Positions 1 to 61,321 of a DNA stretch of 64,000 nt are shown piece after piece (the first letter of the stretch is position 1; the number at the start of each line of letters is the position of its first letter). The position numbers and the translations under genes were made by a program. Source of the DNA: Rubellimicrobium thermophilum DSM 16684 (GTDB lineage Bacteria > Pseudomonadota > Alphaproteobacteria > Rhodobacterales > Rhodobacteraceae); NCBI RefSeq assembly GCF_000442315.1, contig NZ_KE557322.1, forward strand, positions 336,447 through 400,446, read 5' to 3'. Below the pieces are notes generated by a model. It saw only the letters and a program-made list of their open reading frames with translations, ran no database searches and was not told where the DNA came from.

Positions 1-491
1 TTGGTCAGCACCGTCTGGAAGGCCACGGCAGACCGATCGAGCAGCGCGAGGATCTCCGCATCCACGGGCTTGATGCCATGGCGGGCGTCGATCAGGACGA
101 AGGCGCGGCGCAGGCTCGGCCGGCCGGCCAGATAGGCCCGCAGGAGGCGCTGCCAGCGCTCCACGACGGCCTTCGGCGCTTCGGCAAAGCCATAGCCGGG
201 CAGATCCACGAGATAGTGCCGGTCCCCCAGGGCGAAATAGTTGATTTCCTGCGTGCGGCCGGGGGTACCGGAGGCGCGCGCCAATCCCTTGCGCCCTGTC
301 AGCGCATTGATGAGGCTGGACTTCCCGACATTGGAGCGGCCGGCAAAGCAGATCTCTGTCCGGTCGGGGGGCGGCAGGGCTTCCAGCGCCGTCACGCCCT
401 TGAGGAAGGTCACCGGGCCGGCGAAGAGACGCCGGCCGGTCTCTGCGGCCTCGGGGTCCGGATCGGGGGCAAGGGGAAAGGGCAGGGTCAC
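1..491 (-). CDS. engB: Ribosome biogenesis GTP-binding protein EngB (YihA/YsxC), C-terminus cut by window edge
   Basis: TRAFAC-class GTPase needed for late 50S subunit assembly. Visible in order: P-loop G1 GRSNVGKSS, a G2 threonine in TPGRTQ, and G3 DLPGYG. The sequence leaves the window inside the expected G4 (T-K-x-D), so about the last third is missing. The likely start is the GTG at 489-491 (V-T-L-P-F-P), which matches the usual short EngB N-terminus. No stop codon separates this gene from yidC upstream: both lie in one reading frame, so a YidC-EngB fusion is what the sequence literally encodes. A run of seven G (C on the coding strand) lies just upstream of the GTG. One base fewer there would end yidC at a TGA overlapping this GTG, the normal arrangement. 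The family call is certain; the fusion is not. Confidence 0.93.
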
Positions 492-2426
492 TTGCGTCTG
501 GGGGGGCGCCGGGGTGTTGGCCGCATCCGGCCTGTTGCGCCGCCAGCCGGCACGGATGTTCCCGAAGATGTCGGGCTTGGCGCCGTGGCTGCGCATGATC
601 AGATACTGCTGGACAAAGGTGATGAGGTTGTTCGCGATCCAGTAGAGCACCAGACCCGATGCGAAGGTGCCCAGCATGAACATGAAGATCCAGGGCATCC
701 AGGCAAAGATCATCCGCTGGGTCGGATCCGGGGGCACCGGGTTGAGCTTCTGCTGAAGCCACATCGAGATGCCGAGGCAGATGGGCAGCACGCCGATCGA
801 GAAGATGTGGAAGAAGCTGCCAACCTCTGGCGTGCCCCAGGGCAGCAGTCCGAAGAGGTTGAGGATCGAGGTCGGATCCGGTGCGGACAGATCGCGGATC
901 CAGAGGATCCAGGGGGCATGGCGCAGCTCGATGGTGACGAAGATCACCTTGTAGAGGGCAAAGAAGATCGGGATCTGCACGAGGATCGGCAGACAGCCCG
1001 AGGCCGGGTTCACCTTGTTGTCCCGGTAGAGCTTCATGATGCCCTGCTGGAGGGCCATGCGGTCATCGCCGACCTTCTCGCGCAGCGCCTCCATCTGGGG
1101 CTGGAGCTCGCGCATGCGCGCCATGGAGCTGTAGGATTTCCAGGCCAGCGGAAGGACCAGCGCCTTGATCACGAGGGTCAGCGCGATGATCGCCCAGCCC
1201 ATGTTCCCGATCATCTGATGGAGATGATGCAGGAGCCAGAACATCGGCTTGGTCAGGAACCAGAACCAGCCCCAGTCGATCGAATCGAGGAAGCGGTCGA
1301 TCCCCAGGACATTCTGGTAGTTGCGGATCGTCTCCCATTCCTTGGCACCGGCAAAGACCAGCGTGCGGTATTCCACCGCCGCACCGGGAGCGATGGTCTC
1401 GGCCGGGCGGCGCGCCAGCGTCTGGAGCGTGCCGGTCTGCGGAATGTAACGTGCGACCGAACGGAAGGCGCTGCCCGGCTCGGGGATCAGCGTGGTCATC
1501 CAGTACTTGTCGGTGAAGCCGATCCAGCCGTCCTGCGCGACCTCGATCACCTCCTGCCGCGAGCCGTCCTCGGCCGCAGGCAGATCGGGCAGATCGGGAT
1601 AGTCGATCTCCTGCAGCGTGCCATCCGACATGCGCACCACGCCTTCGTGCAGGATGAAGTTGGCGTAGGAGTCCTCTCGCCCCTCGCGGGCGATGAAGCC
1701 ATAGGGCGAGAGGGTGACGGCCTCGCCGGTCATGTTCTCCACCCGCTCGGTGATGGTGAACATGAATTCGTCATCCACCGAGATCACGCGCGTGAAGCGC
1801 AGGCCCCGGCCATTCTCCCAGGTCAGCGTCACCGGGCTGGACGGCGTGAGCGTGGCGACGATCTCGGCCCCTTGCAGGGGATCGCCGCCCAGGGCCGCCG
1901 GCGTGGGGGGAAGGGCGGCCCCCGCATCGGGATCGGCGGCCGCTCCGGCCTCGGGCGGGGGGGCGCCTTCGGCGAGCGTCCACACCGTGTCCGGGCCCGG
2001 CACGGCATCCGCAGCCAGGCCTTCGCCCGCGCTCCAGCCATGGACCACGTAATAGGGATAGGGAGAGCCCGCCGGCGTCAGCAGACGCACCAGTTCGGGA
2101 TTGTCGAGCGTGACGCGATAGCCCTTGAGCGCGAGATCATCGAGCCGCGCCCCCCGCAGGCTGAGCGACCCGGTCAGCGAGGGCGTGTCGATGGCGATGC
2201 GCGGCGCGGGCGTCAGGGTGCCCGAGACCTCCTCGGCCGTGACGGCACCGGGTTCGCCCGGTTCGGGTGCGGCCACGGCGGCAGCGGCCGTCTCGGAGGC
2301 GAGGGATCCCGGTTCGGGCGAGGGGGCCTGTTCGGGCGGCGGGAACAGCCAGAACCAGACGAGGATGACGAGGAAGCTCAGCCCCGTCGCAAGGATCAGG
2401 TTCTTGGTCTGATTCGGGTCGTTCAT
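488..2426 (-). CDS. yidC: Membrane protein insertase YidC (Oxa1 family)
   Basis: Inserts and folds inner-membrane proteins, alone or with SecYEG. The ATG at 2424-2426 gives an N-terminal membrane anchor ([19 protein letters not shown]). A large periplasmic beta-sandwich domain follows, with an Ala/Pro-rich linker. The conserved Oxa1 core begins near residue 380 ([19 protein letters not shown]) and includes the segment [20 protein letters not shown]. The C-tail reads [19 protein letters not shown], typical of alphaproteobacterial YidC. The frame does not stop here but runs on into EngB; the end given (488) is the TGA that would apply if the G7 run at the junction had six bases. It lies downstream of rpmH-rnpA-yidD-ttcA as in relatives, with an EAL-domain gene in between. 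Confidence 0.93.
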
Positions 2427-5162: not shown

Positions 5163-5337
5163 GAGGCGCTTGCGCAGCTTGCGGAACTCCGTGGTGCGGG
5201 GGGCGCCGTGAAAGAGGGGATGGATATCGTCGGGGGCGTCGGTCGTGTCGCGCAGTCGGGGGGGGGCCTCCGGCGGCTCCTCTGTCAGATGGGCACATAG
5301 CCCCGGCCGGGCGGGAACGGAACCCCCGGGCCGGGAT

Positions 5338-5389
5338 CACTCCGGCACGTCACTCCGGCACGTCACTCCGGCACGTCACTCCGGCACGT
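5338..5389. repeat. 13-bp tandem repeat, four copies, at the 3' end of yidD
   Basis: The unit CACTCCGGCACGT occurs four times without interruption from 5338 to 5389. The yidD stop codon and last codons (D-V-P-E-stop) lie in the rightmost copy, and the other three form its 3' flank. Because 13 is not a multiple of three, read-through would change frame in each copy. Confidence 0.9.
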
Positions 5390-5597
5390 CGTCCACGCCC
5401 ATTCCGCCCCAGGGGTGACAGCGTGCCAGGCGGCGCAGAGCGAGCCAGCCCCCGCGAAGGGCGCCATGGCGCGACAGGGCCTCCAGCGCATAGGCCGAAC
5501 AGGTGGGGGTGTAGCGGCAATGATGGCCCACCCAGGGCGAGAGCAACAGCCGATAGGCCCGGACAGGCAGCGCGAGCATCCAAGCCGCGGGGGTCAT
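5376..5597 (-). CDS. yidD: Membrane protein insertion efficiency factor YidD
   Basis: A 73-aa peripheral membrane protein that aids YidC-dependent insertion. Typical features are an amphipathic N-terminus ([15 protein letters not shown]) and the conserved cysteine-rich core [15 protein letters not shown], then [17 protein letters not shown]. The ATG at 5595-5597 overlaps the rnpA stop (ATGA), so the two are translationally coupled. The C-terminal codons lie in a 13-bp tandem repeat. Confidence 0.95.
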
Positions 5598-20792: not shown

Positions 20793-23700
20793 GCTGCGAA
20801 CCGGGCCCGGGCAAGGTCCATGATCTTCAGTTCGAGATCGTCGAGCACCTCCACAGGGAGGTCGATGCCCTTCTCGTCGCGAAGGACGTCAAAGAAGTAG
20901 TCATCGATGGCATTGCGCAGATTGTTCTGAGCCACCTCGTTCGACCAGATGTCCACGATCAGGTGGGACTTGATGATGTCGATGATCTGTTGAGCGATCG
21001 CTGCGGCATCGTCGCCGGCTACCAGCTCATCGCCTTCGGTCTTCAGCTGACCGTCCAGGATCCCGAAGAACGCCTGCGCATCCTCATCGCCCCGGATGCT
21101 TTCCGGAACATCGCGGCCGCGATCCTTGCGTGCAACTTTGCTCGCGAGGTCCACGACGCTGTTCAGGTATTCGCGCTCGGACAGCCGCTTCTCGCGGTAG
21201 GCGCGGATGGTCTCTTCCAGCAGCTCGGAGAACTGTTTGTAGAACGTCGGGTCCTCATCCATCTTCTCGGTGATCGCCCGCCGGGTCGCGCTGGCGATGC
21301 GATCGGCCCTCGAGGCCTCGGAGACCCCCGTCTCTTCGACGACGGCCTTCAGCGCGTCGGGATCGTTGATGTTTACCACCTCGATGATGGTCTCCGCCGG
21401 CATTGCCACGACGTGGTCATCAAGGAGCTTCTGAATCTTCGGCTCGAATTCGCGGACATCGACCGCCTCCTGGTAGCGGAGCTGGACCGAGCGCTTGAGT
21501 TCGGAGAACTGCTTCCAGTCGCGTTTCAGGGCATCGATCTTGGCTTCGTCGAAGACATCGAACAGCTTGTCGGATGAGAGCGAGATGTGCAGGCAGCGGC
21601 TGAATGCCTTGAGGCGCGCATAGAACTCGTGGCGCAGCGCCTCGTCAGCGAGGTGCTGCTCGAACTGCTCCATGTCCTTCTTGTTGCGGACCGGTTTGAA
21701 GAGGTCCCAGAGCTGATCGTGCAGCTGGGGCAGCTTGCGGATCTCCTCCCGGACATCGTGCACCGTCCCTGCGAGGTCCGCGGCCTCGTAACCTTCGAAG
21801 GCGCTATAGGTCGTCAGGGCGCTGTCCAATTCGCCCAGAAGCCCCTCGTAATCGACGATGAAACCGAACTGCTTTTCCGTGCCGCCGTCCTCGTAGAGAC
21901 GGTTCACGCGCGCAATCGCCTGGAGGAGATTGTGTTCCTTCAGGGACTTGCAGACGTAGAGCACCGTGTTCCGGGGGGCGTCGAAGCCGGTGAGAAGCTT
22001 GGAGACGACGATCAGGATCTCAGGATCGCCGGAGCCCTTGAATGCATCGATGATCTGGCGGTTGTACTCCTCCTCGGTCTTGTACTTTGCCATCATCTGC
22101 GACCAGAAGCGGCGCACGAGGTCCTTGGATTCCTGGTCGACCTCCTCGTTGCCTTCGTTCTCGTCCGGAGGCGAGATGACGATCGCACTCGAGACGTGGC
22201 CGATCTCGTCGAGAACTTCCTTGAAGCGGACGGCTGCGGCCTTCGAGGGGGCAACAAGCTGCGCCTTGAAGCCGGTCCCCTGCCAGTGCTGGCGATAGTG
22301 CTCGGAGATGTCGAAGGCCTTGGCTCGGATGGCCTGGTCGGTCTTGGCCAGAGCGTCCATCCGGGAGAACTTCCGCTTCAGATCACGCTTCTGGTCCTCG
22401 GTGAGCCCTTCGCTGATCTTCTCGAACCAGCGGTCGATCACGGTGCCCGAGACCTGCTGCTCCACAAGTCGTCCCTCGTAGAGCAGCGGCACGACGGCGC
22501 CGTCGGCGACCGCCTCGTCGATGGCGTAGCGGTGGATCAGCCGCCCGAAGGTCGAAAGCGTGTTCTTCTCCTTCTTCAGCAGGGGCGTGCCTGTGAAGCC
22601 GAGGTAGCAGGCCTTGGGCAGGAGGCGCCGCATCTTGGCGGCGAATTGGCTGTGGCCGCCATAGCGCCCTGTCTGCGTCCTGTGACTCTCGTCGACCAGT
22701 ACGAAGATGTTCGGGTCGTCGTCCGCCAGCTTGCTGTTCCTCAGCGCCGTGTCGAACTTGTTGATGATCGTGGTGATCAGCGGAGCCTTGTTCTGGACCA
22801 GCTCCAGAAGGTGAGCCCCGCTCGTCGCACGGACCGGCTCTAGGTCGCAGGACTTGAAGGTGTCCTTGATCTGCTTGTCGAGATCGTCGCGGTCCGTGAC
22901 GATGATGATCCGCGGGTTCTCGATGCTGCGCTCGAGAGCGAGCGAGCGCCCAAGCATCACCATCGTCAATGATTTGCCCGAACCCTGCGTATGCCAGATC
23001 ACGCCGCCCTTCCTGGCGCCGTTCAGGTCGTGCTGCTTGACCGTTTCGACCGCGCGCCGGATCCCGAAGAACTGCTGATGGCGCGCGACCTTGCGGACGC
23101 CGCCGTCGAACACGGTGAAGCGGCGGATGAGATCGAGCAACCGCTCGGGGCGGCACAGCGCGTACACCGTCCGGTCCTGAACCGTGACCGCACGCTCGCC
23201 CTCAGCGGCCAGTGCGTCGAAATAGGCGCGCGCGCCCGCGAAATCACCGGAGAAGATGGCGTCCTTCTCCGCCGCGGTGAGCACGCGGTTGGCAAAGGGC
23301 GCGATGGCCTCGTCGGTGTCTTCCTCGTCGCGCCAGGTCTGCCAGAACTTCCGCGGCGTGCCCACGGTCGCATAACGCGCCTCGTTCCGGTTCATCACCA
23401 TCAGAAGCTGCGCGAAGTGGAAGAGCTGCGGGATGTTGTCCTCGTTCTGGTAGCCGATCAGCTGGCTGTCCGCCTTGTTGAGGCTCTCGGTCGGCCGCTT
23501 GTTCTCGATCACCAGAACGGGGATGCCGTTCACGAACGCGACGATGTCGCAGCGCTTGGTCTGGCTCGACGCAGTCCTCTCGACCGAGAACTCTGCGGTG
23601 ACGTGGAAGACATTGTTCTCCGGCCGCTCCCAATCGATGTAGCGGAACGAATAGCTCTTCGAGTCGCCGTCGATGGCCTTGGTGATCGTCGTGCCGAGGA

Positions 23701-24004
23701 CGAGCGTGTCGTAGATGTCCTGGTTGGTGCCGCGCAGGCCCTTCAGCCGGTCTGGCGTGGGCTTGAGCCGCCGCATCGCCTCGTGCGCGTCCTCGAGGTC
23801 GAAGGCGTACTCGCGGCCGCGATGCGTGAAGCGGTTGATGCGCATGAGCTGCTCGGCGAGCACGTCATCCAACACCACGTTCCGCAGCCGCCCGCTGCGC
23901 AGGCGAAGCGCCTCCTCCTGCGAGAGCGGGATGAACCCGAGCGCCACCAGCAGCTGCAGCGCCGGGACCTGGGACTGATGTTTCTCGGCGGCGTTGAAGG
24001 TCAT
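20789..24004 (-). CDS. hsdR: Type I restriction enzyme R subunit
   Basis: 1071-aa motor and nuclease subunit. An N-terminal PD-(D/E)xK nuclease motif (CDIVAF...VLVIENKRP, about residue 165) is followed by SF2 translocase motifs: Walker A HTQGSGKS (about 344), DESH box (about 436) and FTGTPLL. A helical C-terminal domain contacts the methylase. All catalytic motifs are intact, so restriction activity is plausible. It is separated from hsdS by the DUF3800 pair and a 175-base gap that may hold its own promoter. Confidence 0.96.
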   Translation of the reverse strand: MTFNAAEKHQSQVPALQLLVALGFIPLSQEEALRLRSGRLRNVVLDDVLAEQLMRINRFTHRGREYAFDLEDAHEAMRRLKPTPDRLKGLRGTNQDIYDTLVLGTTITKAIDGDSKSYSFRYIDWERPENNVFHVTAEFSVERTASSQTKRCDIVAFVNGIPVLVIENKRPTESLNKADSQLIGYQNEDNIPQLFHFAQLLMVMNRNEARYATVGTPRKFWQTWRDEEDTDEAIAPFANRVLTAAEKDAIFSGDFAGARAYFDALAAEGERAVTVQDRTVYALCRPERLLDLIRRFTVFDGGVRKVARHQQFFGIRRAVETVKQHDLNGARKGGVIWHTQGSGKSLTMVMLGRSLALERSIENPRIIIVTDRDDLDKQIKDTFKSCDLEPVRATSGAHLLELVQNKAPLITTIINKFDTALRNSKLADDDPNIFVLVDESHRTQTGRYGGHSQFAAKMRRLLPKACYLGFTGTPLLKKEKNTLSTFGRLIHRYAIDEAVADGAVVPLLYEGRLVEQQVSGTVIDRWFEKISEGLTEDQKRDLKRKFSRMDALAKTDQAIRAKAFDISEHYRQHWQGTGFKAQLVAPSKAAAVRFKEVLDEIGHVSSAIVISPPDENEGNEEVDQESKDLVRRFWSQMMAKYKTEEEYNRQIIDAFKGSGDPEILIVVSKLLTGFDAPRNTVLYVCKSLKEHNLLQAIARVNRLYEDGGTEKQFGFIVDYEGLLGELDSALTTYSAFEGYEAADLAGTVHDVREEIRKLPQLHDQLWDLFKPVRNKKDMEQFEQHLADEALRHEFYARLKAFSRCLHISLSSDKLFDVFDEAKIDALKRDWKQFSELKRSVQLRYQEAVDVREFEPKIQKLLDDHVVAMPAETIIEVVNINDPDALKAVVEETGVSEASRADRIASATRRAITEKMDEDPTFYKQFSELLEETIRAYREKRLSEREYLNSVVDLASKVARKDRGRDVPESIRGDEDAQAFFGILDGQLKTEGDELVAGDDAAAIAQQIIDIIKSHLIVDIWSNEVAQNNLRNAIDDYFFDVLRDEKGIDLPVEVLDDLELKIMDLARARFAA

Positions 24005-24138
24005 GGCGAGCCTCCCGGATAGCCCGGGCGTAGGCGAGACCGGTTCGGGCCGTTAGGGAAAACTTGACATCCCGAGGGTAGCGTGCACATATCTCGCTTG
24101 AGTTCACTGCCTATCGGCCGTGAATCTGTCGAGGCCTT

Positions 24139-39042: not shown

Positions 39043-39809
39043 CCCTCGATTACAATCACCGGCCGAGTTTCGCAGAGCGGGTCAACGCCGCGGTCGATCG
39101 GGCGCTGACCGCCGATCAGGCGATGCGGCCGCCCCGCGACTATCTCGGCGGCTCGCGCCTCGGCCATGCCTGCGAGCGGGCGCTGCAGTTCGAGTTCACG
39201 GCGACGCCGAAGGACGAGGGCCAGGACTTCAGCGGCCAGTCGCTGCGCATCTTCGCCATCGGTCACGCGCTCGAGGATCTGGCCGTCGCCTGGCTGCGCG
39301 GCGCGGGCTTCGACCTCTACACCCGCAAGGGCAACCGGCCAGATGGCGGCCAGTTCGGCTTCTCCGTCGCGGGCGGACGCATCCGCGGTCATGTCGACGG
39401 CATCGTCGCGGCCGGGCCCGAAGGCTTCGGTCTGGCCGTTCCCGCACTGTGGGAATGCAAGACGATGAACGCCAAGAACTGGCGCGCCTGCGTCAAGGAC
39501 GGTGTGACCAAATCGAAGCCGGTCTATGCCGCCCAGATCGCGGTCTACCAGGCCTACATGGAGGGGACGGTCCCCGGCATCTCGGCCGCGCCCGCCGTGT
39601 TCACCGCGATCAACAAGGACACGGCCGAGATGCACCATGAACTGGTGCCTTTCGACGCCGATCTCGCGCAGCGCATGTCCGACCGGGGCGTGCGGATCCT
39701 GAAGGCGACCGATGCGGGCGAGCTTCTGCCGCGCGTCGCCACCACGCCCGACTTCTTCGAATGCCGCTTCTGCCCGTGGTCCGCGCGCTGCTGGAGGCTG
39801 CCGGCATGA
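39039..39809 (+). CDS. PD-(D/E)xK exonuclease with probable Fe-S cluster (Cas4/RecB-like)
   Basis: 256 aa. The nuclease core shows GHVDGI and WECKT (D...ExK). One cysteine near residue 47 (GHACERAL) and three at the C-terminus (FECRFCPWSARC) match the four-cysteine 4Fe-4S arrangement of Cas4/AddB-type exonucleases. It pairs with the upstream annealing module. No Cas genes or CRISPR are nearby, so it is a phage recombination nuclease. Confidence 0.87.
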   Translation: MTLDYNHRPSFAERVNAAVDRALTADQAMRPPRDYLGGSRLGHACERALQFEFTATPKDEGQDFSGQSLRIFAIGHALEDLAVAWLRGAGFDLYTRKGNRPDGGQFGFSVAGGRIRGHVDGIVAAGPEGFGLAVPALWECKTMNAKNWRACVKDGVTKSKPVYAAQIAVYQAYMEGTVPGISAAPAVFTAINKDTAEMHHELVPFDADLAQRMSDRGVRILKATDAGELLPRVATTPDFFECRFCPWSARCWRLPA

Positions 39810-42127
39810 GCGATGACGGCATCCTGCATTTCAACCCGTGGATGGACTTCAACGACGGGCCGCCGTCCGAGAACCCCTTCGGCTGCGACCCCGACCCCGA
39901 GCAGATCGTCCTCTTTCTCGACACGGTGTTCAGCTGGTGCGAGGGGCTGATCCCGCTGCGCGGCTTCGTCGACAAGGGTCAGGGCCGGGACGGCAAGCCC
40001 CACAACATCTGGATCCCGGCCGACGAGACCGCGACCGAGAAGCTCGCGACCTTCGCCGCGTGGGCGAACCGCGAGGGCGCCGCCGTCTATGTCATCCCCG
40101 GCACGGTCGCCGAGCAGGGGCAGGCCCGCGCCGCCGATGTGCTGCAGATGCAGGCCATCGTCGTCGATCTCGATGCGGGCGACATCCCGGCCAAGCTGGA
40201 CCATGTCACCCGCCACCTCGGCGCGCCCACGCTCATCATCGAAAGCGGCGGGCGCACGCCGGAGGGCGCCGCGAAGCTCCATGTCTGGTGGCAACTGACC
40301 GAACCCGCCGAGGGCGAGGATCTGGCCACCCTCTGCCGCTTGCGCGGCGAGATTGCCCTGAAGGTCGGCGGCGACACGCATTTTCGGTCGGCGCACCAGC
40401 CGATCCGGGTGCCTGGCACCGTCTATCACAAGCACGGTCATCAACGCCTCGTGCAGATCCGCGAACATCGCGACGTCGAGGTGGACCTTACGGATTTCGC
40501 TGAACGGGTCGCCGAGATGCCGCCGCTGCCCGGCGTGGGCTTCGCCAGCGATCATGCCGCGCCATCCGCAAAGCCCGGCATCGACGCGGTGCTCACCACG
40601 CCGGTGCGCGAAGGCGCGGTTGACGACTGGTCCCGGTTCCAGGGGGCCAGCGCCGCGATCGGCCACTACGTCCGCCTTGTACACGAGGGACGCCTTGACC
40701 CGTTCGCGGGCTGGGAAGCGATCTGCGGCTACAACGCCGCCATGCTGCGCCCGTCCTGGCCGCTTGATCGGCTGATGGCCGAGTCCGAACGCCTCTGGGC
40801 GCTGCATGTAAAGCGCAACGGTCCGCCGCTCCTGCGCGCAGCCCACGTCGATGCCCCGGCCAGCCCGCTGCCGACCTTCAGCCTCGGCGCGCTGCTCGAC
40901 GACACGAGCCCCATGCCCGAGGACATCATCGGCCCCCGCGTGCTGACGCCGGGCGGTCTCCTGGTGCTGGGCGGTGCGCCCAAGGTCGGCAAGAGCGACT
41001 TCCTGATCTCCTGGCTCGTACACATGGCCGCTGGCGAGCCGTTCCTCGGCTTCACGCCGCCCCGGCCGCTGCGCGTGTTCTATCTGCAGGCCGAGATCCA
41101 GTATCACTACCTGCGCGAGCGCATGCAGCAGATCGCGCTGCCCGCCGCCGTGATCGCCGCCGCGCGCGACACCTTCGTGGCCACCCCGAAACTGAAGCTG
41201 CTGCTCGACGCGGAGGGCGTCGCTCGTGTGGCCGAGGCGATCCGGGCCGCATTCCCCGACGAGCCGCCCGACATCATCGTCATCGACCCGATCCGGAACC
41301 TTTTCGATGGCGGACCCGAGGGCGGCGGCGAGAACGACAACACCGCCATGATGTTCTTCCTGAAGGACCGCGTGGAGCTCCTGCGCGAGGCGGTCAATCC
41401 GGACGCGGGCGTCATCCTCGCCCACCACACCCGCAAGGCCAGCAAGCACCAGGTCAAGGACGACCCATTCCTCGCGCTCTCCGGCGCCAGCGCGCTGCGC
41501 GGCTTCTACACCTCGGGGCTGCTCATGCACCGGCCCGACGAGGACAGCACCGTCCGCAAGCTGGAGATCGAACTGAGGAACGGCCCCGCGCTGCCAGGGA
41601 AGCTGATCGACAAGGTGAAGGGCGAATGGGTCGAGTTGAACCCGCTGAACGAGCGCCTGGTGCGCAAGGAGGTCGGCGCCAAACTCGATGCCGAGCGGCT
41701 GCGCAAGCACGACGTCATTCTCGGCATGCTGCTGGATGAGGCGGCGAGCGAGCGCCTCTACACCGCCATGCAGTTCGCCGAGACCTTCGAGAACCGGGGC
41801 GGTCTGGGCAGCAAGCACACGATCCGCGAGCGCCTCAGCGTGCTGGCGACCAAGGGGTTCGTGAAGTTCCTGCGCGACCCCTCGGGGTTCGGCTTCCCCG
41901 TCACCAGGTCGCGGTTCGGCTACCTCTGCGTCGAGGGCATGCAGTTCGGCGCGCCTGTCGAGGAGGTCGATCCGGACACCGGCGAGGTCACCACAACCGC
42001 CCGTCCGGTCCTGCCCAGCCACTTCAAGTGCCCCCAATCCGGGCTCTGCCTGCAGGTCGAAAACCCCGCCGTCTGGGTCTATCCGGAGGGGCTGGAGGAC
42101 GACCTCACTCATATGAGTGAGGCCTGA
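39806..42127 (+). CDS. Phage primase-helicase (RepA/AAA-type)
   Basis: 773 aa. The N-terminal half has a Prim-Pol-like primase region (IVVDLDAGD, KLHVWWQLTEP, PIRVPGTVYHKHG). The C-terminal half is a RecA-like ATPase with Walker A GGAPKVGKSD and Walker B IIVIDPIRNLF, then AHHTRKASK. A winged-helix-like tail follows. The ATG at 39806 overlaps the exonuclease stop (ATGA). The last codons lie within the 10-bp repeat array. Likely the phage replication initiator. Confidence 0.87.
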   Translation: MSDDGILHFNPWMDFNDGPPSENPFGCDPDPEQIVLFLDTVFSWCEGLIPLRGFVDKGQGRDGKPHNIWIPADETATEKLATFAAWANREGAAVYVIPGTVAEQGQARAADVLQMQAIVVDLDAGDIPAKLDHVTRHLGAPTLIIESGGRTPEGAAKLHVWWQLTEPAEGEDLATLCRLRGEIALKVGGDTHFRSAHQPIRVPGTVYHKHGHQRLVQIREHRDVEVDLTDFAERVAEMPPLPGVGFASDHAAPSAKPGIDAVLTTPVREGAVDDWSRFQGASAAIGHYVRLVHEGRLDPFAGWEAICGYNAAMLRPSWPLDRLMAESERLWALHVKRNGPPLLRAAHVDAPASPLPTFSLGALLDDTSPMPEDIIGPRVLTPGGLLVLGGAPKVGKSDFLISWLVHMAAGEPFLGFTPPRPLRVFYLQAEIQYHYLRERMQQIALPAAVIAAARDTFVATPKLKLLLDAEGVARVAEAIRAAFPDEPPDIIVIDPIRNLFDGGPEGGGENDNTAMMFFLKDRVELLREAVNPDAGVILAHHTRKASKHQVKDDPFLALSGASALRGFYTSGLLMHRPDEDSTVRKLEIELRNGPALPGKLIDKVKGEWVELNPLNERLVRKEVGAKLDAERLRKHDVILGMLLDEAASERLYTAMQFAETFENRGGLGSKHTIRERLSVLATKGFVKFLRDPSGFGFPVTRSRFGYLCVEGMQFGAPVEEVDPDTGEVTTTARPVLPSHFKCPQSGLCLQVENPAVWVYPEGLEDDLTHMSEA

Positions 42128-48083: not shown

Positions 48084-48593
48084 ATGCAGGGCATGAGCGA
48101 GCGGCAATACGCCGCGCATGCGGGGCTCTCGCGCGGGGCGATCCAGAAGGCGAAGGCGGCGGGGCGCCTCGTGCTCTTGCCAGACGGCTCCATCGACGCG
48201 GCCGCCAGCGACGCGCGGCGGGCGGAGACGACCGACCCGTCCAAGACCCGCAAGCCGTCCGGCCCGAAGCTGAAGCCCGTGCCCGAGGCGGCCGTCGCCG
48301 CTGTGGGGGAGACGCTCCGCGAGCAGGGCCTGGCGGCGCCCGCGGTCGGCGGCGGCACCACGTTCCTGCAGGCCAAGACCGCCAACGAGGTGATGAAGGC
48401 GCAGGAGCGGCGCATCCGGCTGCAGAAGCTGAAGGGCGAGCTGGTGGACCGGGCGCGGGCCGAGACGCTGATGTTCCGGCTCGCGCGCGAGGAGCGCGAT
48501 GCCTGGATCACCTGGCCCGCGCGCGTCGCTGCGCTGATGGCGGCGGAGCTGACGGCGGCGCTGGGGGCGGGGCGCAAGTGGAGGCGGCGCTGA
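48084..48593 (+). CDS. Terminase small subunit-like protein (apparent frameshift near 3' end)
   Basis: 169 aa. N-terminal HTH (SERQYAAHAGLSRGAIQKAK) recognises phage DNA; the central helix KAQERRIRLQKLKGELVDR and WPARVAALMAAELTAALG are typical of Nu1-like small terminases. The family tail (QKVLEAHVRAQLDSLAE) is encoded just downstream, 48578-48670, but in another frame. One extra G in the GGGGGCGGGG stretch (48562-48571) would restore it. As read, the protein ends prematurely with a basic tail. Confidence 0.8.
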   Translation: MQGMSERQYAAHAGLSRGAIQKAKAAGRLVLLPDGSIDAAASDARRAETTDPSKTRKPSGPKLKPVPEAAVAAVGETLREQGLAAPAVGGGTTFLQAKTANEVMKAQERRIRLQKLKGELVDRARAETLMFRLAREERDAWITWPARVAALMAAELTAALGAGRKWRRR

Positions 48594-50829: not shown

Positions 50830-50950
50830 TCGATGGGGCTGTTCGACAGGTTCCGCCGCCGGGCGACCGGCGGCCCCCGCGTCCTCCGGGCTTACGCGGC
50901 TCCCCCGGAGCCACGGTCCCTCCGGACTGCGCGCCCGCCTCGAGGGGGCC

Positions 50951-53446
50951 ATGGCGCGACGCCGGCTGCGGGGCTGGAACCCGCCCTTGGAGAACATCAA
51001 CGCGCTGGTGGCCTCGGGCGGGCCGCGACTGCTGGCGCGGGCGCGCGAGCTCGTGGTCACCAACGGCTATGCGGCGAACGCCTGCGAGGCCTTCGCCGCG
51101 AACCTCGTCGGCGACGGGATCAAGCCCTCGTCGCTGATCGAGGATGCGGCCCTGCGGGATCGCGTCCAGCGGCTCTGGCTGGCCTGGACCGACGAGGCGG
51201 ATGCGGACGGGCTGACCGACTTCTACGGCCTGCAGGCCATGGTGGCGCGGGAGATGTTCGTGGCCGGCGAGTGCTTCGTCCGGCTGCGGCCCCGCCGGGC
51301 CGAGGACGAGCTGACGGTCCCACTGCAGATGCAGCTCCTGCAATCGGAGATGCTGCCCTTCGAGAAGACCGGCACCGCGGCGAACGGGAACCGGCTGCGC
51401 TGCGGGATCGAGTTCGACGCGATCGGCCGGCGCGTGGCCTATCACTTCCGCCGCCGCCATCCGGGCGACAGCACCGATCAGGGCGCGGTCATCCCCGAGA
51501 CGGTACGGGTGCCGGCCGGGGACGTGCTGCACATCTATCGCCCCATCGATGCGGGCCAGATCCGCGGCCTGCCGCATGTGGCGCCGGCCATGGTGCGGCT
51601 GTTCCTGCTCGACCAGTACGACGACGCCGAGCTCGACCGAAAGAAGACCGCAGCGATGTTCGCGGGCTTCATCACCAAGACCGCGCCCGAAGAGCCCCTG
51701 ATGGGAGAGGCCGAGGCGGATCTGGACGGCGCGACCATTGCGAGCCTCGAGCCCGGCACGATGCAGGTGCTGCTGCCGGGCGAGGACGTGAAGTTCTCGT
51801 CGCCGGCCGATGTCGGCGGCGGCTACGAGGCGTTCCAGTACCGGACGCTGCTCGCCGTCTCGGCCTCGCTGGGGCTGCCCTACCACCTCGTCACCGGCGA
51901 CGTCCGGCAGGCGAACTATTCCAGCCTGCGGGCCGAGCTCGTGGAGTTCCGCCGCCGCGTGCAGCAGCTCCAGCACGGGGTGCTGGCGCATCAGCTCTGC
52001 CGTCCGATCTGGGCGCGCTGGATGGAGACGGCGGTGCTGGCGGGTGCGCTCGACCTGCCGGGGTATGCGGCAGCGCCAGGGCGGTTCCGCGCGGTGCAGT
52101 GGATCCCGCCGCGCTGGGACTGGGTCGATCCGCTGAAGGACATCCAGGCGCAGGTGCTGGCGATGGAGGCGGGCATCACCTCGCGGCGCAAGGTGGTCGA
52201 GGCGACCGGATACGACGTCGAGGAGGTCGACCGCGAGAACGCCGCTGATGCCGCGCGCGCGACGGCTCTCGGCCTGCGCTACCGCACCAGCCCCGGCGAG
52301 ACGCAGGGCGCCCGCGCGACGCCGGCGACCCGGGCGAGCCCGGTGATGGCGCCGGCAACGACACGGACGACGGCGCCGACGCGACCGGTCCGGCCACCGA
52401 ACAGGAGTGACGACATGGCAAGCTGGTATGCGATCCGCGCCCGCGACGGCGGCGCGGAAGTGGCGATCCATGACGAGATCGGGGCGCAGGGCGTCTCGGC
52501 GAAGGGCTTCCTCGCGGAACTCGGCGCGATCCCGGACGGGGCGCCGATCCTTGTGCGGATCAACAGCCCCGGCGGATCGGTCTTCGACGCGGTCGCGATC
52601 CACAACGCCCTGAAGCGCCACGCAGGCACCGTCACCGTCTGGATCGACGGGATCGCCGCCTCGGCCGCCTCCTATGTGGCGATGGCCGGCGACGAGATCG
52701 TCATGCCCGAGAACGCCTTCCTGATGATCCACGATCCGGCGGGGCTGGTCATGGGCACGGCCGCCGACATGCGGGCGATGGCCGAGACGCTCGACAAGAT
52801 CGCCGCCACCATGGTCCGCGGCTATGCTGCCCGCGCGGGCCGCCCCGAGGACGAAATCGCCGCGCTGATGGCGGCCGAGACCTGGTTCGACGCCGGGGAG
52901 GCGCTGGCCGCGGGCCTCGCCACGCGGATCGCCGAGCCCGTGCGCATCGCCGCCCGCTTCGACATCGCCCGCTTCCGCAACGCGCCCCCGGCGCTGGTCG
53001 AGGCGGTCGCGGCCGGTGCGGACCCCGTCGAAACCGTTCCGGACGGGAACGGTTCGGAGGGGCCCGCGGCCGAGGGCGGAGCGGTGGACGAGGATGCCGG
53101 TGCCGCCGATCCGGCGCCGCAGCCGGGCAGCGCCGGCGCGGGTGTCTCGGAAGGCAACAGCCTTCCGGCCACGAATGATGCAGCCCCCGACGCCGATGTC
53201 ATCCGCGCCGAGGCCATGGCCCATGCCCGCGCCGTGGTCGATCTCTGCTGCCTCGCCGGTCTGCCGCAGATGGCGTCCCGCTTCCTCGCCGAGGGCGCAA
53301 GCCTAGAGGAGGTCCGTGCAGCCCTACTGGCCGCCCGCGCCGAGGCCGAGCCCGAGATCGCGCCCCATCACCCGCAGCCCGGCCGCTCCTCGGCCGCGCG
53401 CCCCTGGGGCGAGATCGTCGCCCGCACCTTCAAGCTGAAAGGATAA
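50951..53446 (+). CDS. Phage portal protein, open frame continuing into ClpP-like protease
   Basis: 831 aa as read. Residues 1 to about 440 are a lambda gpB-type portal (RRLRGWNPPLENINALVASG, LHIYRPIDAGQIRGLPHVAP, LGLPYHLVTGDV). From residue 489 the S49/S14-type head protease follows without a stop. A more natural portal N-terminus (MGLFDRFRRR) starts at 50833 in another frame directly after gpW, and a natural acidic portal C-terminus (GNDTDDGADATG, stop at 52408-52410) is also in that other frame. The fused frame may therefore reflect two compensating single-base changes rather than a real fusion. Confidence 0.82.
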   Translation: MARRRLRGWNPPLENINALVASGGPRLLARARELVVTNGYAANACEAFAANLVGDGIKPSSLIEDAALRDRVQRLWLAWTDEADADGLTDFYGLQAMVAREMFVAGECFVRLRPRRAEDELTVPLQMQLLQSEMLPFEKTGTAANGNRLRCGIEFDAIGRRVAYHFRRRHPGDSTDQGAVIPETVRVPAGDVLHIYRPIDAGQIRGLPHVAPAMVRLFLLDQYDDAELDRKKTAAMFAGFITKTAPEEPLMGEAEADLDGATIASLEPGTMQVLLPGEDVKFSSPADVGGGYEAFQYRTLLAVSASLGLPYHLVTGDVRQANYSSLRAELVEFRRRVQQLQHGVLAHQLCRPIWARWMETAVLAGALDLPGYAAAPGRFRAVQWIPPRWDWVDPLKDIQAQVLAMEAGITSRRKVVEATGYDVEEVDRENAADAARATALGLRYRTSPGETQGARATPATRASPVMAPATTRTTAPTRPVRPPNRSDDMASWYAIRARDGGAEVAIHDEIGAQGVSAKGFLAELGAIPDGAPILVRINSPGGSVFDAVAIHNALKRHAGTVTVWIDGIAASAASYVAMAGDEIVMPENAFLMIHDPAGLVMGTAADMRAMAETLDKIAATMVRGYAARAGRPEDEIAALMAAETWFDAGEALAAGLATRIAEPVRIAARFDIARFRNAPPALVEAVAAGADPVETVPDGNGSEGPAAEGGAVDEDAGAADPAPQPGSAGAGVSEGNSLPATNDAAPDADVIRAEAMAHARAVVDLCCLAGLPQMASRFLAEGASLEEVRAALLAARAEAEPEIAPHHPQPGRSSAARPWGEIVARTFKLKG
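52415..53446 (+). CDS. Head maturation protease (ClpP-like) with scaffold-like tail
   Basis: The ATG at 52415 has a strong ribosome-binding site (AGGAGTGA), so this protease can be made on its own, in the same frame as the portal ORF. Motifs: VRINSPGGSVFDAVAIHNAL, the catalytic serine in GIAASAASYVAMAG, and MIHDPAG with the histidine. About 344 aa; the C-terminal third (acidic, Gly/Ala-rich then helical) may act as an internal scaffold, as in lambda gpC/Nu3. Confidence 0.85.
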   Translation: MASWYAIRARDGGAEVAIHDEIGAQGVSAKGFLAELGAIPDGAPILVRINSPGGSVFDAVAIHNALKRHAGTVTVWIDGIAASAASYVAMAGDEIVMPENAFLMIHDPAGLVMGTAADMRAMAETLDKIAATMVRGYAARAGRPEDEIAALMAAETWFDAGEALAAGLATRIAEPVRIAARFDIARFRNAPPALVEAVAAGADPVETVPDGNGSEGPAAEGGAVDEDAGAADPAPQPGSAGAGVSEGNSLPATNDAAPDADVIRAEAMAHARAVVDLCCLAGLPQMASRFLAEGASLEEVRAALLAARAEAEPEIAPHHPQPGRSSAARPWGEIVARTFKLKG

Positions 53447-59350: not shown

Positions 59351-61321
59351 ATGGCCGAGAAACGCGTCAGCGTCCGCCTCGCGGCCGTGGGCGGGCGACA
59401 GGTGCGGGCCGAGCTGGAAGGTGTCGGCGAAGCCGGATCGCGCGGCTTTGGACGGCTGAGCCGGGAGATGGAAGCGGCGAACGCACGGCTCGCGGCCTTC
59501 TCGCGGCGGGTGCGGGTTGCGGCGGCCGCCGCCGTGGCAGCTGCCGCCGCCGCGGGCGTGGCGATGATCCGCTCCGGGCTGCAGACCGTCGATGCGCAGG
59601 CCAAGCTGGCGCAGTCCCTCGGCACCACCGTCGCCTCGATCCAGACGCTGGAGCGTGCGGGCGAACTGGCGGGCGTGTCGATGTCCGGCATCGAGCAGGC
59701 CACCAAGGATCTGACGCGCCGTCTGAGCCAGGCGGCCGCCGGGACCGGCCCCGTCGCCGATGCGCTGGACCGGCTGGGCCTTTCCGCCACCGACCTGATC
59801 GCTCTGCCGCTGGACCAGCGCGTGGGTGCGATCAACGCCGCCATCGAGAACTTCGTGCCCGCTGCCGAGCGCGCGGCGGTGGCGGGGCAGCTCTTCGGCG
59901 AGGAAGGCTCCATCGCCATGTCGCGGATCGACACGGCGACGCTGCGCCAGGCGACGGAGGACGTGCTCGCCTTCGGCGTTGTCGTGTCGGAGCAGGACGC
60001 CGACCAGATCGAGCGCACGAACGATGCCATCTCTCGGCTCGGCCTCATCTGGCGTGGGCTATCGAACCAGCTGGCGGTCGCTGCAGCCCCCGCGCTGGAA
60101 GCGGTCGCCAACGCCATGGCGGCGGTCGCCAGCCGCACCGGGCCGCTCGGCATCGCGATCCGCGGTCTCTTCGACAACATCGGCCGCCTGACGACCTACG
60201 CTGCCACCTTCGCGGCCTTCCTCGCGGGCCGCTGGGTCGCCGGCATGGCCGCCGCGGCGCTCTCGGTCCGTGGCCTCGCCAATGCGCTCGTCGTCCTGCG
60301 CGGCGCGCTGATCCGCACCGGCATCGGGGCGCTGATCGTCGGCGCGGGCGAACTCGTCTACCAGTTCACCCGCCTCGTCTCCGGCGCGGGCGGTTTCGGC
60401 GAGGCGATGTCGCTCCTGAAGGACCTCGCGGTCGAGGTCTGGGAACGCATCAGGATGGGCGCCGCAGCGGCGGGCGCGGCCGCCACGGCGATGTTCTTCG
60501 ACCTGAAGGCCGATGCGGCGTCGGGCATGCAGAGCGCCATCGAGAGTGTTGTCGGATTCGGGAACACGGCGGCGAATACGTTCGAAGGCGCCTACGAGGC
60601 GATCAAGGCGATCTGGGGCCTGCTGCCCGCCGCCATCGGCGATCTCGCGTTCCAGGCGGCGAACAGCCTCGTCGACGGTGTCGAGGCTATGCTGAACGGT
60701 GTGGTCTCGCGCATCAACGGCTTCATCGGCGGCATCAACCAGGGGCTGGAAGCGCTCGGCTCCGAGCGCCGTATCTCGCTGGTGCCCGACCTCGACCTCG
60801 GCGAGATCGAGAACCGCTTCGAGGGCGCGGCCAGTGCCGCCACCACGGCAGCGCAGGCGGCCTTCGATCGGGCCTTCGAGGACAACCCGTTGACCGCGCC
60901 CGATCTCGGGCTCACAGACGCAGCCGCCCGCGCACTCGAGTCCGCGAACCTGTATCGCGGGGCCGCGCGAGATCTGGCCGAGGGAGCCCGTGCACCCCTC
61001 GAAAGCTGGCAGGCCCTACGCGATGCCGTGCGCGGCACCGACGAGGCCAGTGCCGATGCGCTGACCGAGGCCACCGGCGCAGCCCAACGGTTGGAGACGG
61101 CGCTCGGCGATGCCGGACGCGCCGCGACGGGTGCAGGCGCGGCGGCCGGAGCTGCTGCTGCGGTAGCGGAGCCCGCGACCGAGGCCGCCGTCACCGGGTG
61201 GCAGGCGGTCACGGCGGCGCTGTCGGAGTACGCCAGCAAGGCCCGCGACATCGGTGGCGACATCGGCCAGAGCCTCGTCGGCGCTTCCAGTCGGCCGAGA
61301 ACGCGGTGGGCCAGTTCGTGA
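59351..61321 (+). CDS. Phage tail tape measure protein, N-terminal part (frameshifted)
   Basis: 656 aa as read. Sets tail length. SVRLAAVGGRQVRAELEGVG, a hydrophobic Ala-rich segment, coiled-coil GIEQATKDLTRRLSQAAAGT, and several membrane-like helices (near residue 290 and 330) are usual. The frame ends with RPRTRWASS, but the natural continuation (FQSAENAVGQF) is in the -1 frame from 61285. One missing T in GCTTCC would explain it. Confidence 0.88.
   Translation: MAEKRVSVRLAAVGGRQVRAELEGVGEAGSRGFGRLSREMEAANARLAAFSRRVRVAAAAAVAAAAAAGVAMIRSGLQTVDAQAKLAQSLGTTVASIQTLERAGELAGVSMSGIEQATKDLTRRLSQAAAGTGPVADALDRLGLSATDLIALPLDQRVGAINAAIENFVPAAERAAVAGQLFGEEGSIAMSRIDTATLRQATEDVLAFGVVVSEQDADQIERTNDAISRLGLIWRGLSNQLAVAAAPALEAVANAMAAVASRTGPLGIAIRGLFDNIGRLTTYAATFAAFLAGRWVAGMAAAALSVRGLANALVVLRGALIRTGIGALIVGAGELVYQFTRLVSGAGGFGEAMSLLKDLAVEVWERIRMGAAAAGAAATAMFFDLKADAASGMQSAIESVVGFGNTAANTFEGAYEAIKAIWGLLPAAIGDLAFQAANSLVDGVEAMLNGVVSRINGFIGGINQGLEALGSERRISLVPDLDLGEIENRFEGAASAATTAAQAAFDRAFEDNPLTAPDLGLTDAAARALESANLYRGAARDLAEGARAPLESWQALRDAVRGTDEASADALTEATGAAQRLETALGDAGRAATGAGAAAGAAAAVAEPATEAAVTGWQAVTAALSEYASKARDIGGDIGQSLVGASSRPRTRWASS

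Follow-up and report, generated by a model that had tools for sequence, protein, structure and literature searches.

The yidC and engB genes of Rubellimicrobium thermophilum DSM 16684 are joined in a single reading frame in the current assembly. From sequence comparison, this join is best explained by a one-base sequencing or assembly indel at or near a run of seven C in an ordinary Rubellimicrobium yidC-engB operon, a reading to which we give a probability of roughly 0.93. The assembled sequence would hold one base too many, within or beside the C run ahead of the junction, and the true end of yidC would most likely be a TGA that overlaps the GTG start of engB. YidC and EngB would be made as separate proteins, the latter probably through coupled re-initiation at the overlap. 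The original prediction had left three readings side by side, namely a real fusion, a slippage-controlled switch between fused and separate proteins, and a one-base error. Only the last of these is supported, by the overlap seen in genus mates and by four other indels nearby.

The window, meaning the whole stretch of 64,000 nucleotides that was analysed (C5:336447-400446), belongs to a genome of 3.16 Mb in 10 contigs that is 88.85% complete. On its minus strand, the yidC ATG at 2426 and the GTG at 491 lie 1935 bases (645 codons) apart in the same frame, which also holds the EngB P-loop and runs free of stops from 2426 to the window edge. The shared phase of these three points, with no stop between them, was correctly called from the sequence in the original prediction. 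At the contig level the open reading frame closes beyond the window and encodes 861 aa (94.4 kDa), of which 645 aa (71.0 kDa) precede the GTG and 216 aa (23.4 kDa) follow from it. The computed masses of YidC and of the joined product are slightly above the approximately 65 and 85-90 kDa first estimated. Pfam places YidC_periplas, 60KD_IMP and MMR_HSR1 in this one frame, and no other YidC family match occurs in the genome. The EngB part shares 70-80% identity with EngB of the genus mates. Ahead of the junction, the predicted homopolymer is present as seven C on the minus strand, corresponding to G7 at 500-506 (+). The neighbouring frame, read without any edit, ends in ...RPPRRK* with a TGA at 490-488 that overlaps the GTG at 491, again as predicted. 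The features concerned are listed in Table 1.

Table 1. Features of the yidC-engB junction in the window, and conserved genes with one-base indels on the same contig (positions prefixed L173 or L174 are those of the respective locus).
Feature	Position	Strand or place	Evidence
yidC, membrane insertase	491..2426	-	Pfam YidC_periplas and 60KD_IMP; assembled frame continues into engB without a stop
Junction stretch with seven C, likely site of the extra base	498..509	-	frame relation to four genus mates shifts between ~560 and 491
AAG-TGA, conserved yidC end of genus mates	488..493	-	here one base off the yidC frame
engB, 50S-assembly GTPase, GTG start at 491, runs past the window edge	3..491	-	Pfam MMR_HSR1; 216 aa on the contig
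ABC-transporter permease gene, two indels	L173:14291-15510	own contig, left of window	both from G001, G006 and G007; the first from G005 as well
Cobalamin adenosyltransferase gene, one indel	L174:11126-11673	own contig, left of window	G001 only
recO, one indel	L174:8998-9752	own contig, left of window	G001 only

Comparison with seven genus mates, among them R. roseum (G007), R. arenae (G001) and R. mesophilum (G006), shows what the junction normally looks like. In six of the seven, yidC ends in AAG-TGA and is overlapped by an engB start of the form GTGATG. In the seventh, R. mesophilum (locus L006), the genes are separate, with 900 bases from the yidC stop to the region of the EngB P-loop. The check on sister genomes that had been proposed for a GTGA overlap came out in favour of that overlap in six of the seven. 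The overlapping pair of R. roseum, R. arenae and four more mates has its gene order in common with the window and resembles it in the AAG-TGA end of yidC, in the engB GTG lying over the stop and in the basic tail of yidC. However, the stop is in frame in the mates, whereas the AAGTGA found at the same position in the window is displaced from the yidC frame by one base, and the window has lost the ATG found directly after the GTG in the mates. The yidC tails of the seven mates read PPRKGK, PPKGK, APKGK, SPKGK, APRKGK (in two) and TPAGK, and the tail given by the neighbouring frame of the window, PPRRK*, is comparable to PPRKGK*. In four mates (G001, G004, G005 and G007), part of yidC is also free of stops in the frame of engB, and between ~560 and 491 there is a change in which frame of the window matches theirs. 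The displaced but conserved AAG-TGA, the similar basic tail and the separate genes of the relatives examined all argue for an error.

A wider search gave the same picture. The loci examined numbered 110 (L002-L111, with the window's own as L002), although three of them (L040, L044 and L046) duplicate L003, L008 and L006, which are genus mates, and further repeats may be among them. Both genes were present in 108, and L016 and L097 had no engB within the stretch compared. A continuous yidC-engB frame like that of the window was sought and found in none of the 107 other loci with both genes. One candidate for a fused locus, L069, was ruled out by a TGA 27 codons past the YW motif. Searching 295 genomes of the family with a 248-aa junction protein returned some match in every one. 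At least five matches spanned the full query; among the matches listed, that of the window was stop-free and four had one TGA, and there was no stop-free full-length match other than the window's own. In a separate search of 61 genomes, the three matches listed from outside the family that extended from the middle of YidC as far as the query's end (G045, G054 and G060) each contained one stop.

Further evidence for an error comes from other one-base frameshifts elsewhere on this contig. Predicted genes of the window and of 100 kb of its contig were compared with genus-mate stretches in both directions. Outside the prophage, one or more mates covered 48,046 nt of this combined block. Hits that were antisense or fell at gene boundaries were disregarded, as they are no frameshifts within genes. 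Within 32 kb on the contig, four one-base indels were identified, affecting three conserved genes and all lying outside the prophage; two further rows from G005 in the prophage part (window near 48551-48578 and at 61285) were left out of this count. The alignments of all four lesions show the gain or loss of a single base, and the Pfam pieces of the broken genes sit in different frames. BPD_transp_1 is split into three pieces (19.9, 26.6 and 25.0 bits, two of them below the cut-off of 26.4), Cob_adeno_trans into two (67.4 and 134.2 bits), while RecO_N and RecO_C lie apart (68.8 and 72.1 bits). The recO and adenosyltransferase indels are each supported by one mate in addition to Pfam. Inner stop codons were absent from the best alignments of 24 comparisons (12 residues excluded at each alignment end), and indels without nonsense codons fit sequencing error better than gene decay. 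With four such indels in conserved genes nearby, an error is a simpler explanation of the junction than a real insertion, and we infer that the extra base is not a true mutation of the strain.

In the reverse control, 12 comparisons covered a summed 173,130 aligned nt, a figure that does not equal unique sequence because the stretches overlap. The yidC-engB join of the window was flagged in four of these comparisons (G001, G004, G005 and G007). Three further frameshift candidates emerged, all in R. mesophilum, one of them inside its own engB (window residue 686), and the other mates yielded none. Lesions of this type are thus not confined to the present genome. Judging from these alignments, the assembly analysed here is prone to one-base indels. 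PMC9262707 concerns indel frameshift errors in long-read assemblies, and the errors described there resemble those seen here in being one-base indels that split genes or run them together in a few-contig genome. They differ from the present set in that some of the four indels lie in short runs, without a long homopolymer.

If the seventh C were real, a recent one-base insertion would truly join yidC and engB into a single YidC-EngB protein of 861 aa. The frame is open from 2426 through to the engB stop, both domains are intact within it, and EngB would sit on the cytoplasmic C-terminal side of YidC. Such a protein would tether a GTPase of large-subunit assembly to the membrane insertase, and would link ribosome assembly with membrane insertion. 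However, the genes are separate in all seven genus mates, none of the 107 other loci and no other stop-free full-length match among those listed provides a parallel, the conserved AAG-TGA is still present in the window, and the four other one-base indels occur in conserved genes close by. A search of the literature, judged by titles, found nothing on a YidC-EngB fusion. The fusion put forward in the original prediction is not borne out by these comparisons and we consider it very unlikely.

The run of seven C does precede the stop/start overlap of the neighbouring frame, which speaks for a polymerase or ribosome slippage on it that would yield YidC and EngB both joined and apart. However, the yidC stop is not preceded by a long C run in any of the seven genus mates, so a slippage element is not conserved and the proposed switch is unsupported. 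Runs of this kind also occur in other, ordinary genes: the window holds 11 G/C runs of at least seven bases, nine of them inside predicted genes, and seven of those nine (7-8 bases long) carry no frameshift flagged by comparison with the mates, the other two being the junction and a run at ttcA. Runs of such length are thus not regularly wrong in this sequence, which counts against the one-base error, as do the indels in short runs and the frameshift candidates in R. mesophilum. By eye, there is no GGAG-like site in the 30 bases upstream of the GTG at 491, so separate initiation of EngB would have little chance if the seven C were taken as they stand. A slippage switch is accordingly hard to credit at all, and a one-base error in an otherwise normal operon remains the preferred reading. 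Joins and splits in the present assembly, including those at yidC-engB, portal-protease and recO, should not be taken as biology without read support.

Several further observations were made in and around the window. A prophage-like region occupies 42462-62740 (+), with related copies on the genome's own contig C7 and on contig C21 of G005. Within it, an open reading frame at 50927-53437 (+) combines a portal protein and a Clp-type protease in one frame according to Pfam, whereas two overlapping open reading frames are found instead in the genome's second copy, on contig C7, and in the G005 copy. The window and the contig C7 copy differ by one base near this junction, and the join is a further hint of an indel error, not proof of one. 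At 61285 (+), two adjoining genes of the window correspond to one continuous open reading frame in the prophage region of G005.

Two predicted genes outside this region stand out by their distribution. That at 39770-42106 (+), of 779 aa, has no match in any of the seven genus mates. The other, at 20798-24010 (-), encodes 1071 aa with 93% protein identity to a gene of G005. The remaining six mates gave weak matches in two cases and none in four, and the gene may have been acquired horizontally, since it is close in G005 and weak or absent elsewhere.

At the N-terminal end of ttcA, which lies on the minus strand, there is a G9 run at 5258-5266 (+). The conserved N-terminus is not preceded by any in-frame ATG, GTG or TTG; the nearest ATG is in a different frame, and the G9 run lies between it and that N-terminus. 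The start region is only suggestive of another indel. Directly upstream of ttcA, a perfect 13-bp tandem repeat extends over 4.2 copies at 5337-5390 (+).
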